Shown in pieces: positions 17,061 through 21,943 of a stretch of DNA of 64,000 bases (position 1 is its first letter; each line of letters starts with the position of its first letter). A program made the position numbers and the translations under genes. This DNA comes from Pseudomonadota bacterium (GTDB lineage: Bacteria; Pseudomonadota; Alphaproteobacteria; Rhizobiales; JAKPQE01). Location: the NCBI GenBank assembly GCA_029572955.1, contig JAKPQE010000152.1, positions 1 to 64,000 of the forward strand. Reading direction: 5' to 3'. The notes under the pieces are model-generated. The model ran no database searches and had not been told where the DNA came from. It saw only the letters and a program-made list of their open reading frames with translations.

Positions 17061-17486
17061 ATGTTCAAGGAATTCAAGGAATTCGCGGTCAAGGGCAATG
17101 TCGTCGACATGGCCGTCGGCATCATGATCGGCGCCGCATTCGGGGCGGTCGTCTCGACCCTCGTCGACGACATCATCATGCCGCCGATCGGCCTCATCCT
17201 CGGCAGTGTCGACTTCTCGCAGCTCTTCGTCACGCTGAAGCAGGGGCTGCCCGAGGGGCCCTACACCACCGTTCAGGCGGCCAAGGATGCCGGCGCGGTG
17301 ACCTGGAACATCGGCCTGTTCATCAACGCGGTGATCAAGTTCGTGATCATCGCCTTCGCCCTGTTCCTCATCGTCAAGGGCATCAACCGGCTGAAGCGCG
17401 AGGCGGACGAGGCGCCGGCCGAGCCGCCGGCACCGCCCAGGAACGAGCAGCTCCTCGAAGAGATCCGGGATCTCTTGAAGAAATGA
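17061..17486 (+). CDS. mscL: Large-conductance mechanosensitive channel MscL
   Basis: A 141-residue inner-membrane channel that opens under membrane tension to release solutes on osmotic downshock. TM1 lies in [20 protein letters not shown] with the pore-lining glycines, followed by [16 protein letters not shown]2 lies in [22 protein letters not shown], and the C-terminal cytoplasmic helix is [14 protein letters not shown]. The ATG at 17061 starts the conserved [13 protein letters not shown]. The stop overlaps the aminotransferase start by ATGA (17483-17486), so the two genes are coupled. Confidence 0.97.
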
Positions 17487-18673
17487 GCCAATCGGACCTG
17501 TTGGCCGCACTGCGGCCCGAGGCGCGCGAGGCGCCGGGCAGCGGCATCGTCGAGGTCATGTCCTACGGCTTCGGCCGCAAGGGTCTCATTCCTCTGTGGG
17601 CGGGCGAGGGAGACCTTGCCACGCCGGCCTTCATCCGCGACGCGGCGGCGGCCTCGCTCGCCGCCGGCGAGACCTTCTACACCTACCAGGGAGGCCTGCC
17701 GGAGCTGCGCGCCAGCCTTGCCGGCTATTTCGCGCGGCTCTACGGCAAGCCGTTCGTCCCCGAGCAGTTCTCGGTCACCGGCTCGGGCATGCAGTCGATC
17801 AAGCTCGCCATCGAGCTCACCGCCGGAGCCGGCGACGAGGTCGTCATCCCGAGCCCGGCCTGGCCGAACATCGTCGCCGCGGTCGGCATCTTCGGGGCGC
17901 GCCCGGTCGAGGTGCCGATGACGCTCGGCAATGACGGCTGGAAGCTCGATCTCGACCAGCTCTTTGCCGCCTGCGGGCCGAAGGCGCGGGCGATCTTCCT
18001 CAACAGCCCGTGCAACCCGACCGGCTGGACCGCGACGCGCGAAGAACTCGCGGCCATTCTCGACTTCTGCCGCAAGCGCGGTATCTGGATCATTGCCGAC
18101 GAGATCTATGCCCGCTTCTCCTACGGGCGCGAGCGGGCGCCGTCATTCCACGACGTCGCCGAGGAGGACGACCGCATTCTCTACGTCAACACCTTCTCGA
18201 AGAACTGGGCGATGACCGGCTGGCGCATCGGCTGGCTCGGCGCGCCGCGGGCGCTCGCCCCGACGATCGAGAACCTCATCCAGTATTCGACCTCGGGTGT
18301 CGCGGTCTTCATGCAGCGCGCGGCGATCGCCGCGATCGATGAGGGCGAGGCGTTCATCGCCGAACAGGTGGCACGGGCGGCGGCCGGGCGCGAGATCGTC
18401 TGCTCGGCGCTCGAAGCGACCGGCCAGGTGCGGCTCAGCAGGCCGGACGGTGCCTTCTACCTGTTCTTCGCCATCGACGGCGAGCCGGACACCCGCCGGC
18501 TCGGCCTCAGGCTCGTCGACGAGGCAGAGATCGGCCTTGCCCCAGGCACTGCCTTCGGCGCCGGAGGCAACGGCTATCTCAGGCTGTGTTTCGCCCGCTC
18601 GGCGGAGAGCCTGACGACGGCCGCCGGGCGCCTCGTCGACTGGCTTGAGCGCCGCGCCGGCAGCGGGCGCTGA
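17483..18673 (+). CDS. Class I/II pyridoxal phosphate aminotransferase
   Basis: A 396-residue fold-type I aminotransferase. The PLP lysine is K240 in [25 protein letters not shown] carries the conserved Asn that contacts [15 protein letters not shown] holds the Asp and Tyr; LRLCFARS supplies the carboxylate-binding Arg. This matches the aspartate/aromatic aminotransferase group, but the amino acid used cannot be read from the sequence. It overlaps mscL by four bases and precedes a FixJ-type regulator by 2 bases, suggesting one transcript. Confidence 0.88.
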
Positions 18674-18675
18674 CG

Positions 18676-19329
18676 ATGGCGGCGGACGACAGACCGGACC
18701 CGGCCGCGGGCGGCAACGACCGCGATGGTCCGGCGACGATCTACGTCGTCGACAGCGACGAGGGGGTGCGCGCGACGTTGGTCGCGCTGTTCGAGGCGGC
18801 GGGCTTTTCCGTCGCCACCTTTTCGAGCGGCGAGGCGTTCCTCGCCGCCGAACGGCGGCCGGCGAAAGGCTGCATCATCCTCGACATGAACCTGCCGGAC
18901 TGCTCCGGTCTCGAGATCCTCAAAGCCCTCGGCGCGGCCGGAGACGAGCGGCCGGTCGTCGTCGTCTCGGCCCAGGCCGACATCCCGACCGCCGTCGCGG
19001 CGATCAAGGAGGGTGCGGTCGACTTCATCGAGAAGCCGCTCGACGACGCCAACCTCCTCGTCAATGTCTGCGCCGCCTATGGCGACCGGAGCGAGGCGGC
19101 CGTCGACGAAGGCCCGGATTTCGCCGGCCGGGCGCTGCTGACGCCGCGCGAGCGCCAGGTGCTCGGCCAGATCACCGCCGGACGCTCGAACAAGGAAGCC
19201 GGCCGGGAACTCGCCATCAGCCCGCGCACCGTCGAGGTGCACCGGGCGCGGATCATGGAAAAGCTCGGCGCCAAGAACGCCGCCGACCTCGTCCGCATCG
19301 TGCTGACCGGCGGCGGACGGGTCGCCTGA
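18676..19329 (+). CDS. FixJ-family response regulator
   Basis: A 217-residue two-component regulator. A receiver at about 21-140 has Asp70 in IILDMNLPDCSG and Lys120 in VDFIEKPLDD. A LuxR-type helix-turn-helix at about 150-212 includes LTPRERQVLGQITAGRSNKEAGRELAISPRTVEVHRA. The receiver shows the FixJ signature AVAAIKEGAVDFIEKP. No FixL-like PAS-heme kinase lies nearby, so the phosphodonor is unknown. A FixK-like gene and a FixJ-like binding motif (19569-19580) lie directly downstream, which suggests that this regulator controls that gene. Confidence 0.88.
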   Translation: MAADDRPDPAAGGNDRDGPATIYVVDSDEGVRATLVALFEAAGFSVATFSSGEAFLAAERRPAKGCIILDMNLPDCSGLEILKALGAAGDERPVVVVSAQADIPTAVAAIKEGAVDFIEKPLDDANLLVNVCAAYGDRSEAAVDEGPDFAGRALLTPRERQVLGQITAGRSNKEAGRELAISPRTVEVHRARIMEKLGAKNAADLVRIVLTGGGRVA

Positions 19330-19360
19330 CGGCGCGAACGTCCGGTCGCGTCGCCCGAAC

Positions 19361-19374
19361 TTGACGTGTGTCAA
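19361..19374. promoter_or_regulatory. FNR/FixK-type binding site
   Basis: TTGACGTGTGTCAA is a perfect dyad at its outer five bases (TTGAC-N4-GTCAA), fitting the FixK/FNR pattern TTGA-N6-TCAA. Its centre is 41.5 bases ahead of a start predicted from the -10-like TAGATT (19397-19402), the classic position for class II activation. The Crp/Fnr-family gene downstream has the matching E..SR recognition helix. Confidence 0.6.
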
Positions 19375-19568
19375 CGCAGCCCTCGTCCGCTTCCCCTAGA
19401 TTTCGCCCCCGTGAGCGGGAAGCCCTCCCCGCCTCACCGAATCGGTTCCCGCTCTTCGCCCCGTTCGCGGTGGTGGAGCAATGGTGTTTGGCACCCGGGA
19501 ATCGCCGCTCCGGCCCGACCGGCCGCGCGTCGAGCGCGGTAATGTCGGGGCATGTCCCATCCGCAAAA

Positions 19569-19580
19569 CTACGTAAGTAT
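19569..19580 (+). promoter_or_regulatory. Candidate FixJ-binding motif
   Basis: CTACGTAAGTAT contains GTAAGTAT, seven of eight matches to the GTAMGTAG element described for FixJ-dependent fixK and nifA promoters. It lies about 33 bases ahead of TAGGAT (19613-19618), so it would sit near -55 to -45, where FixJ sites are found. A FixJ-family gene lies immediately upstream. Assignment is by motif only. Confidence 0.4.
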
Positions 19581-19714
19581 GGCTCCGAAGATGCACAAAC
19601 CCGCGCCGGAGCTAGGATTCATCGCGCCGAAAAAAGCCATCGACGGTTCGCGAGCGGCATTTCATCTGTCGTAAGCGCTCCGAAAATGCGCTAGAACGGT
19701 TCGCGAGAGGGCAA

Positions 19715-20431
19715 ATGACAATGGCATATCTCGACCGGCAGACGGCGACCCATGGCGACGGCCTTTCGGAATCGGCCCGCAGCGAGCGTGCCTGGTCCGA
19801 ATTCACGGCCTCGAACCGGGTCAAGCGCCTGGCGCTCACCGAGCACGAGGCCGTCTTCTTCGAAGGCGATCGCGCCGAGCGGCTGTTCGAGATCACCGAC
19901 GGCGCGGTGATGCTCTACAAGCTGTTGCCGGACGGGCGCCGGCAGGTGGTCGAGATCCTCGGCGAGGGCAGCCTGTTCGGCCTGCAGGCGAGCGACCTCT
20001 ACGACTGTTCCGCCGAGACGCTGACGCCGGTGCGCCTCCGGGCGATCGACCGGCACGACCTCGAGGCCATCCCGGACCTCCTCGGCCACATCAACCAGTG
20101 CCTTCTCGGCCAGCTGCAGACGATGCACGACCATGCGGTGCTGCTCGGCCGCAAGTCGGCCTTCGAGCGGGTCACCTCGTTCCTGATGCGGTTCGTGCCG
20201 AAGCGCGGCGAGGTCGGCTGCGCCGGTCCGGCCAAGGACGGGCCGGACGAGAAGGTGGTGGTGCTGGCGATGACCCGTCAGGAAATCGCCGACTATCTGG
20301 GCCTCACCATAGAGACGGTGTCGCGGGTCTTTTCGGACCTGCGCCGGCGCGGGCTGATCGCCGCCGAGAAGCACGACCGCGTGCGCATCCTCGACATCTG
20401 CGGCCTGTGCAAGCTGACCGGCACGCACTGA
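19715..20431 (+). CDS. Crp/Fnr-family transcription regulator (FixK-like)
   Basis: A 238-residue DNA-binding regulator with a cyclic-nucleotide-binding-type beta-roll (about 40-150; DGRRQVVEILGEGSLFG) and a C-terminal HTH, MTRQEIADYLGLTIETVSRVFSDLRRRGLI. The recognition helix carries E..SR, as in FNR and FixK, which bind TTGAT-like half sites. The N-terminal iron-sulfur cysteines of FNR are missing, so it resembles FixK rather than an oxygen sensor itself. A CGLC pair lies near the C-terminus. Starts at 19715 and 19721 are both plausible; GAGAGG lies 4 and 10 bases before them. Confidence 0.88.
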   Translation: MTMAYLDRQTATHGDGLSESARSERAWSEFTASNRVKRLALTEHEAVFFEGDRAERLFEITDGAVMLYKLLPDGRRQVVEILGEGSLFGLQASDLYDCSAETLTPVRLRAIDRHDLEAIPDLLGHINQCLLGQLQTMHDHAVLLGRKSAFERVTSFLMRFVPKRGEVGCAGPAKDGPDEKVVVLAMTRQEIADYLGLTIETVSRVFSDLRRRGLIAAEKHDRVRILDICGLCKLTGTH

Positions 20432-20482: not shown

Positions 20483-21943
20483 TCAGACCGAGCCGGTACG
20501 GTCCGCGTCTCCGGCTTCCGGCGCGTGGTCCGGCAGGACGATGACGAAGGCCGCGCCCGGCGCGCCGTCGGCAAGCTCGATGGTGCCGCCATGGGCATGC
20601 ACCAGTTCGGCGGCGATGGCGAGCCCGAGGCCGGTGCCGCCGGGGCGGGCCGAACCCTCGAAGGCGCGAAAGAGGTTCTCACGGGCCTTCTGCGGCACGC
20701 CCGGCCCGGTGTCGGCGACAGTGATGCGCACGCCGGCCGGCGCACGCTCGGCGGCGACCGTCAGGCGGCGGACGAGCGCGGGGTCCTCGCCGGCCTCCAG
20801 CGCCTGAACGGCGTTGCGGCCGAGATTGACGAGCACCCGCAGCAGCTGGTCGGGATCGGCCTCGATCTCGAGCCCGGCCGGCACCCGGTTCTCGAAGACG
20901 ATGGTCGGATGGTCGACGAGGCCGACGACGTCGGCGACTTCGTCGACGAGGCGGGCGAGCGCCAGCACGCGGCGCACCGGCGGCTGTTCCTCGGCCCGGC
21001 CATAGGCGAGCGTCGACTGGCAATAGGCAATCGCCCGGTCGAGCGCGCCGATCAGCTTGGGCGCGAAACGCTGCACCGTCGGATCGGGAAGGTCGGTCAG
21101 GCGGTCGGAGATGAGCTGCGCCGAGGCGAGCAGGTTGCGCAGATCGTGGTTGATCTTGGAGACGGCGAGGCCGACGTCGGCGAGGCGGCGCTGCTGCTTC
21201 AGGGTGCCGGCGAGCTGGCGCTGCATGGTGGCGAGGCGCTCTTCGGCAAGGCCGACCTCGTCGCCGCGCCGGCTCGGGCGGATGATGCGGGCCGGGTCTT
21301 CCGGCGCCGCGCTGAAGCGCGCCATCGCCTCGGTGAGCCGGCGCATCGGCCGCACGAAGAGGCCGTTGAGGCTGAGGAAGACGAGGGTCGCGGCGATCAG
21401 CGAAATGACCAGCGAGAGGACGAGGATGTTGCGCGAATAGCGCAGCATCGCCCAGCGCAGCGGCGCTTCGGCCATGACGATCTCGAGGAACTCGCCGCTA
21501 CGCGGCGGCTGACCGATGACCCGGATGGTGCGGTCGCCGCCGGCGACGAGCGTCTCGAAGGCATCGGCGATCGCGGCGAGCGGCCGGTTGACCCGGAGGT
21601 CGACGTCGCGTTTCACCATTCCCGGCATCGACGACATGGCGAGCAGGCGGCGCATGCCCTCGCCACGCACGGCGACCGCGTCGGCGCCGATAGCGGCGAG
21701 CAGATCGGCGCGCAGGGCATCGGAGGTCGTCAGGCCCTCGCCTTCCCGCTCGAGGAGGAGCGCGGCGACATTGGCCGTCGCCAGACGGTCCTTGAGCCAG
21801 GTCACCCGGAAATTGGCGATCGAGGGAACGAAGATCATCACTTCGGCGAACATCACGAACAGGATCGTGAGGACGAGCAGCTTGACCGACAGGCCGACGA
21901 AGGGCCGACGTCGGGTCGTGTCGGTGCCATTGGCAGGCTGCAT
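20483..21943 (-). CDS. Membrane sensor histidine kinase with HAMP domain
   Basis: A 486-residue sensor kinase. TM1 is about residues 17-40 and TM2 about 172-194, with a periplasmic domain of roughly 130 residues between them. A HAMP linker (RPMRRLTEAMARFS...) leads to the H box KINHDLRNLLASAQ with His266, N box LVNLGRNAVQALEAG, G1 VADTGPGVPQ and G2 GGTGLGLAIAAELV. The HDLRN variant of the H box is unlike ordinary HExxxP kinases. No response regulator is adjacent on this strand, so its partner is unknown. It lies 61 bases downstream of the flavoprotein gene and may end that transcript. Confidence 0.88.
   Translation of the reverse strand: MQPANGTDTTRRRPFVGLSVKLLVLTILFVMFAEVMIFVPSIANFRVTWLKDRLATANVAALLLEREGEGLTTSDALRADLLAAIGADAVAVRGEGMRRLLAMSSMPGMVKRDVDLRVNRPLAAIADAFETLVAGGDRTIRVIGQPPRSGEFLEIVMAEAPLRWAMLRYSRNILVLSLVISLIAATLVFLSLNGLFVRPMRRLTEAMARFSAAPEDPARIIRPSRRGDEVGLAEERLATMQRQLAGTLKQQRRLADVGLAVSKINHDLRNLLASAQLISDRLTDLPDPTVQRFAPKLIGALDRAIAYCQSTLAYGRAEEQPPVRRVLALARLVDEVADVVGLVDHPTIVFENRVPAGLEIEADPDQLLRVLVNLGRNAVQALEAGEDPALVRRLTVAAERAPAGVRITVADTGPGVPQKARENLFRAFEGSARPGGTGLGLAIAAELVHAHGGTIELADGAPGAAFVIVLPDHAPEAGDADRTGSV

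Follow-up and report, generated by a model that had tools for sequence, protein, structure and literature searches.

A FixLJ-FixK-type locus without FixL in a Rhizobiales bacterium, and a FixK-type protein that may itself sense oxygen or redox state

Textbook accounts put FixK at the end of the FixLJ cascade, blind to oxygen, and present FNR as the alternative that senses it. A locus that carries a FixJ-like and a FixK-like regulator with no FixL beside them raises a simple question, namely which protein would sense oxygen there. Such a locus occupies positions 18676-20431 of the window, by which we mean the whole stretch of 64,000 nucleotides that was analysed. A previous inspection of the letters (the sequence-only reading) had suggested an oxygen-type cascade from FixJ to FixK, with feedback. 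The features are given below; start sites and -10 elements were inferred by eye.

17483-18673, forward strand: class I/II aminotransferase of the PRK06108 subfamily (NCBIfam, above cut-off), a conserved upstream neighbour, also in relatives
18674-18675, no strand: junction of 2 bases from the aminotransferase stop to the fixJ ATG; relatives have a fixL-type gene of about 1.2 kb here
18676-19329, forward strand: FixJ-like response regulator, receiver and GerE (Pfam, NCBIfam, structure match, pocket alignment)
19361-19374, no strand: FNR/FixK-type box TTGACGTGTGTCAA, a perfect TTGA-N6-TCAA whose position is not conserved in relatives
19397-19402, forward strand: putative -10 element TAGATT of a box-dependent promoter (by inspection)
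19572-19579, forward strand: FixJ-type site CGTAAGTA, conserved upstream of the orthologous gene
19613-19618, forward strand: putative -10 element TAGGAT (CTAG at 19612-19615), 42-43 bp past the FixJ-type site, as in relatives
19721-20431, forward strand: FixK-like Crp/Fnr regulator with E..SR helix and four co-conserved cysteines (domain, alignment, tree, model)
20099-20101, 20219-20221, 20399-20401 and 20408-20410, forward strand: codons of C127, C167, C227 and C230, respectively (alignment)

The FixJ-family gene, the perfect box, the Crp/Fnr gene with E..SR and the lack of an adjacent FixL had all been named in the sequence-only reading, and all are confirmed. A gap of 386 bases separates the FixJ-like and Crp/Fnr genes. 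An Rfam search of this leader of about 390 bases (19329-19721) gave no known RNA. Transcription from the putative box-dependent promoter would give the Crp/Fnr gene a leader of about 310 bases.

The history of the locus can be read from its relatives. Crp/Fnr orthologs occur order-wide (173 of 397 genomes at E<=1e-25, about 75 of these closely related), usually with a FixJ-like gene directly 5', and neighbourhoods were fetched for 20 Hyphomicrobiales relatives. The FixJ-like and Crp/Fnr genes are adjacent in 18 of the 20, and the order in 18 of 20 is aminotransferase, FixL (a haem-PAS kinase), FixJ, usually a FixT-like receiver, and Crp/Fnr, while hemN and ccoN follow downstream in 16 loci. 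NCBIfam calls on these genes are FixL, FixJ, CcoN, HemN and CcoP. The PAS kinase between the aminotransferase and FixJ ranks as FixL in NCBIfam (325 bits over a full-length alignment, below the curated 850), is similar to FixL structures too, and retains the haem His and the Arg of IGIGRE in 18 of 18 relatives. The single-domain receiver of about 110 residues, which lies between FixJ and Crp/Fnr in most relatives, is FixT-like in position. Both FixL and this receiver are gone from the window, and since relatives carry FixL at exactly the place of the two-base junction, FixL would have been lost in this lineage. We regard it as highly probable, from this comparison of gene orders, that the window holds a reduced FixLJ-FixK microoxia locus, the ancestral FixL having been lost here.

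The lost genes were also sought elsewhere. The sequence-only reading had advised looking for FixL in the window's own genome, and a search with an HMM and with the relatives' FixL as queries found no ortholog; because the genome is 98.7% complete, the absence is probable, not certain. The same-family genome G001 gave no FixL either. PAS kinases of the own genome were rejected as FixL; the best of them match at 24-30%, and no haem-PAS motif is present in the single full alignment that was examined. No ORF matching the lost receiver was found in the 386-base gap, and in the rest of the own genome and in G001 a FixT-like receiver gave weak receiver-domain matches within larger frames only. Next to the locus, at 20483-21943 on the minus strand, stands an orphan membrane histidine kinase that is conserved order-wide. 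It was rejected as a replacement of FixL, since 186 of 199 genomes of the order have an ortholog and in G001 it lies elsewhere. That genome has lost FixJ too, and its Crp/Fnr, hemN and ccoN genes are still together. Thus two lineages besides that of the window, L099 (the same G001) and L118 (genome G045), have a cysteine-bearing Crp/Fnr gene without an adjoining FixJ. The window's own genome has its hemN and ccoN on another contig (C181), with TTGA-N6-TCAA boxes. Its sole ccoN has an in-frame TGA (C181:43998-44000; L153 7499-7501) where relatives have Trp, which may be a strain variant, a pseudogene or an assembly error.

The FixJ-like protein has the receiver and GerE domains of its family (Pfam), finds PRK09390 FixJ as its best NCBIfam match (191.7 bits, below the curated cut-off of 255) and is closest among solved structures to B. 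japonicum FixJ (5xso). By domains and similarity it belongs with FixJ; its pocket is incomplete, and a cognate FixL was found neither nearby nor in the genome. The phospho-acceptor D70 and K120 are present, and S27 (codon 18754-18756) stands in place of the second Asp of the acidic pocket. All 67 relatives compared share the same six pocket residues (two acidic, Asp, Ser/Thr, Phe, Lys) and the window protein differs at this one, so that among the 68 proteins compared Ser occurs solely in the window. The change suggests relaxed or altered phosphorylation and is no proof of inactivity.

A putative target site of FixJ recurs in the relatives. The sequence-only reading had placed a FixJ motif near -50 of a predicted start, and this stands: CGTAAGTA lies at about -49 from the start expected at about 19625, as inferred from TAGGAT. 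De novo 7-mer counts upstream of the Crp/Fnr gene in 40 non-redundant loci rank GTACGTA and GTAAGTA at the top. GTA[AC]GTA occurs there in 16 of the 40 against 0.45 expected (never in more than 3 in 300 shuffles), and together with CTAG at a fixed distance in 9 against 0.03 expected, counts that kinship among the relatives inflates, the tree suggesting few independent events. The distance to the CTAG -10 element is 42-43 bp in most cases, window included. Comparison of the loci shows this site to be a conserved putative promoter site. It agrees with the published FixJ class motif GTAMGTAG (PMC4999443) and with GTACGTAG, the published motif of the fixK promoter in R. palustris (PMC13327599). 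The genomes without an adjacent FixJ, G001 and G045, have no recognisable FixJ-type site upstream of Crp/Fnr; the same is true of several relatives that have FixJ.

What the FixK-type protein would act upon may be read from the TTGA-N6-TCAA box. In the window TTGACGTGTGTCAA is the sole TTGA-N6-TCAA, with 0.24 expected by shuffling, and because 21 of 100 shuffles hold at least one, it is weak on window evidence alone. The genome scan that the sequence-only reading had proposed gave 32 sites where the reversed pattern, used as control, gave 8, and 28 of the 32 are intergenic (27 of 31 outside the window, and the window one) according to a simple codon-usage gene finder. Their neighbours in the own genome include hemN, ccoN, 5-aminolevulinate synthase or hemA, CcmI, CoxB, a hemerythrin, an enzyme of the TMAO-reductase family, indolepyruvate ferredoxin oxidoreductase, a maturation protease for hydrogenase and two further Crp/Fnr genes. 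In relatives that have both genes, a box lies between hemN and ccoN in 16 of 16. The FixK-type protein is the candidate to bind these boxes, and further Crp/Fnr proteins may do so as well. The excess over the control, the intergenic positions and the low-oxygen neighbours together argue that TTGA-N6-TCAA is a real motif of a predicted low-oxygen regulon in this genome. The box of the window is indeed centred 41.5 bp upstream of a start, the one inferred from TAGATT, as had been predicted. A box before the Crp/Fnr gene is found in few relatives only and at other distances, for instance near the relative's own Crp/Fnr promoter at -191 (L106), -173 (L107) and -188 (L111) from the start of the Crp/Fnr match. 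A conserved autoregulatory box was rejected, since its place is not conserved, and the feedback drawn by the sequence-only reading becomes doubtful for the same reason, autoregulation through the window box being possible. In L106 the box is flanked by the FixJ site on one side and the CTAG element on the other, a placement that suggests repression there.

The FixK-type protein itself had been described as cysteine-poor, which is wrong. Its start is likelier at 19721 than at 19715 because many relatives begin with MAY.., and we number from 19721 (two is added from 19715). Past this start there are five cysteines, of which C127, C167, C227 and C230 are nearly invariant in the group and C96 is less conserved. 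Judged as a FixK, the protein has the Crp/Fnr fold with the E..SR recognition helix and its gene is preceded by a FixJ-type site; its best NCBIfam score, 122 bits for NF050806 (Caulobacter FixK), is below the cut-off of 300. It scores low for Fnr and FnrL. Judged as an FNR or FnrN, it does not have the combination of N-terminal cysteine cluster and central Cys; its four cysteines stand at other positions than those of E. coli FNR, and the set shares none of the N-terminal FNR positions. Its AlphaFold model is confident (pLDDT 91), and the nearest structure to both protein and model is FixK2 (4i2o).

The four cysteines travel together. In 89 homologs, 47 have all four, 40 have none, 1 lacks C127 only and 1 is a stray alignment; with named genomes added (Pleomorphomonas, Stappia, Pseudovibrio, Cohaesibacter, Roseibium and others), 136 partly overlapping rows contain 60 with all four, 73 with none, 2 without C127 and 1 stray, all counts being again inflated by kinship. 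The alignment thus shows the set to be kept or absent as a unit in these Crp/Fnr proteins. C127 is lost with the other three kept in G045 (C127 to Lys) and Rhodoplanes, and every one of the 62 rows that have three or four of the cysteines has the C-terminal CxxC. In a FastTree tree the character changes twice, including what may be a joint loss on the Ancylobacter/Bosea branch (weakly supported), and most of the pattern could be one origin and one loss. The model places C127 within the long dimerisation helix (118-144) and C167 in a loop that precedes the HTH, with C227 and C230 in the final short helix; because C127 is in that helix and the CxxC at the C-terminus, a single shared cysteine site is not obvious from the model. 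The Crp/Fnr protein of G001 also keeps all four cysteines and the invariant residues of the group. In published schemes the absence of iron-sulfur cysteines is what defines a FixK (PMC4999443). Our search of the open-access literature found no description of a cysteine-bearing FixK group, and the four-cysteine subgroup is apparently both widespread and undescribed.

Which protein, then, would sense oxygen? Among the own-genome Crp/Fnr proteins found with PF13545, none has the full FNR cysteine set. One of them, C31 (L181 2702-3406, minus strand), keeps three of the four FNR ligands; it has a CxxC, a central Cys and E..SR, with Val in place of the third N-terminal ligand, and could be an unusual three-cysteine FNR candidate and an alternative sensor. 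Because no FixL was found, no full FNR set exists among these proteins and the neighbouring kinase is no replacement, the four-cysteine protein becomes the leading candidate sensor, with C31 as its main rival. The FixJ-like protein would still drive the Crp/Fnr gene and, without FixL, would no longer report haem-bound oxygen. The Crp/Fnr protein would bind TTGA-N6-TCAA through its E..SR helix and activate hemN, cco and other low-oxygen genes. At least C167, C227 and C230, with C127 or another fourth ligand, may hold an oxygen- or redox-labile iron-sulfur cluster, and the FixK-type protein would then itself be the sensor, as with the C-terminal cluster of Bacillus Fnr; these two steps are the least certain. 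Comparison with the relatives shows that the window lineage has lost or moved FixL, the receiver and the hemN-cco genes once next to the locus, with hemN-ccoN now elsewhere behind boxes. Of the cascade claimed by the sequence-only reading, the FixJ-to-FixK-type link is supported, given the conserved site and the conserved gene order in relatives, and the intact FixLJ cascade falls, with no FixL ortholog found and the pocket Asp lost. We judge it slightly better than an even chance that the locus is a FixLJ-FixK remnant whose FixK-type protein itself senses oxygen or redox state via its cysteines, and our confidence in direct oxygen sensing by the four cysteines is moderate, about evenly poised. 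More tentative is the wider proposal that a distinct Hyphomicrobiales Crp/Fnr subgroup at the FixK position binds an oxygen-sensitive iron-sulfur cluster via new ligands (C127, C167, C227, C230), merging the functions of FixK and FNR, and that this allowed the loss of FixL.

The retention of the fixJ gene, D70, K120 and the upstream FixJ site suggests selection for use, and could also mean that an ordinary FixJ-FixK cascade persists in which another histidine kinase, acting in trans, has replaced FixL and gives the oxygen input. The FixK-type protein would then be active whenever made and its cysteines structural, for example in a Cys3-His zinc site (C167, C227-x2-C230-x5-H236). The own genome has many kinases and C-x2-C-x5-H is common at the C-terminus of the group, but the otherwise invariant pocket Asp is lost, the nearest kinase is no dedicated replacement, as its distribution across the order indicates, and in place of the last His other residues (Y, F, R or Q) also occur; we consider this arrangement unlikely. 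The Asp change at position 27, seen in the window protein only, would also suit a decaying locus, in which the FixJ-like gene degenerates after the loss of FixL, the Crp/Fnr gene is constitutive or box-driven, and a different Crp/Fnr protein, such as C31, whose CxxC, central Cys and E..SR would fit that role, has taken over the control by low oxygen. The sister genome G001, without FixJ and a recognisable FixJ site, points the same way. Against decay, however, the four cysteines and the invariant group residues are kept in both the window and G001, the FixJ site of the window is intact and both genes are full-length, which leaves it a rather weaker prospect than the kinase in trans. The invariant CxxC could also serve as a thiol/disulfide switch (C227-C230) without any metal cluster, an oxidative inactivation comparable to the control by oxidation that is established for B. 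diazoefficiens FixK2 (PMC9104804). This would leave unexplained why C167, and nearly always C127, are conserved together with the CxxC, and we find it the least probable of the three.

Sensing by the FixK-type protein, the reading preferred here, would place the locus between systems that are usually kept apart. With FixLJ-FixT-FixK of Sinorhizobium and Caulobacter and FixLJ-FixK2 of Bradyrhizobium, the relatives share gene set and order, and there is further likeness in the GTAMGTAG-class promoter site, the boxes at hemN and cco and the FixK2-like fold. The window differs in having no FixL and no FixT-like receiver, and in the lost acidic-pocket Asp of its FixJ. Where FixK is described (PMC4999443) as free of iron-sulfur cysteines, the window protein has four conserved cysteines. 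Since FixL is present in the relatives, cysteine sensing there would be a second layer, and the group would point to a further check on oxygen or redox state below FixL. The window lineage may be seen as an experiment of nature that removed FixL and left the cysteine-bearing regulator, its FixJ site and the target boxes in place. Bacillus Fnr has a C-terminal [4Fe-4S] cluster held by C-x2-C-x4-C and an Asp ligand (C219-x2-C222-x4-C227 in B. cereus; PMC3520743). The window group has in common with it a C-terminal CxxC in a Crp/Fnr protein of low-oxygen genes, a control that is predicted for the window group. It differs in spacing (C127, C167, C227-x2-C230, only the CxxC being C-terminal), in that its cluster is putative, and in that the proteins closest to it are alphaproteobacterial and of the FixK type. 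Next to the cbb3 oxidase and hemN, a widespread group of FixK type that has a conserved cysteine set of its own would blur the division between FixK and FNR. Unlike FNR, FnrN and FnrL, the window protein has none of the N-terminal FNR cysteine set; it shares with them the class of recognition helix and the box, and possibly direct sensing by cysteines.
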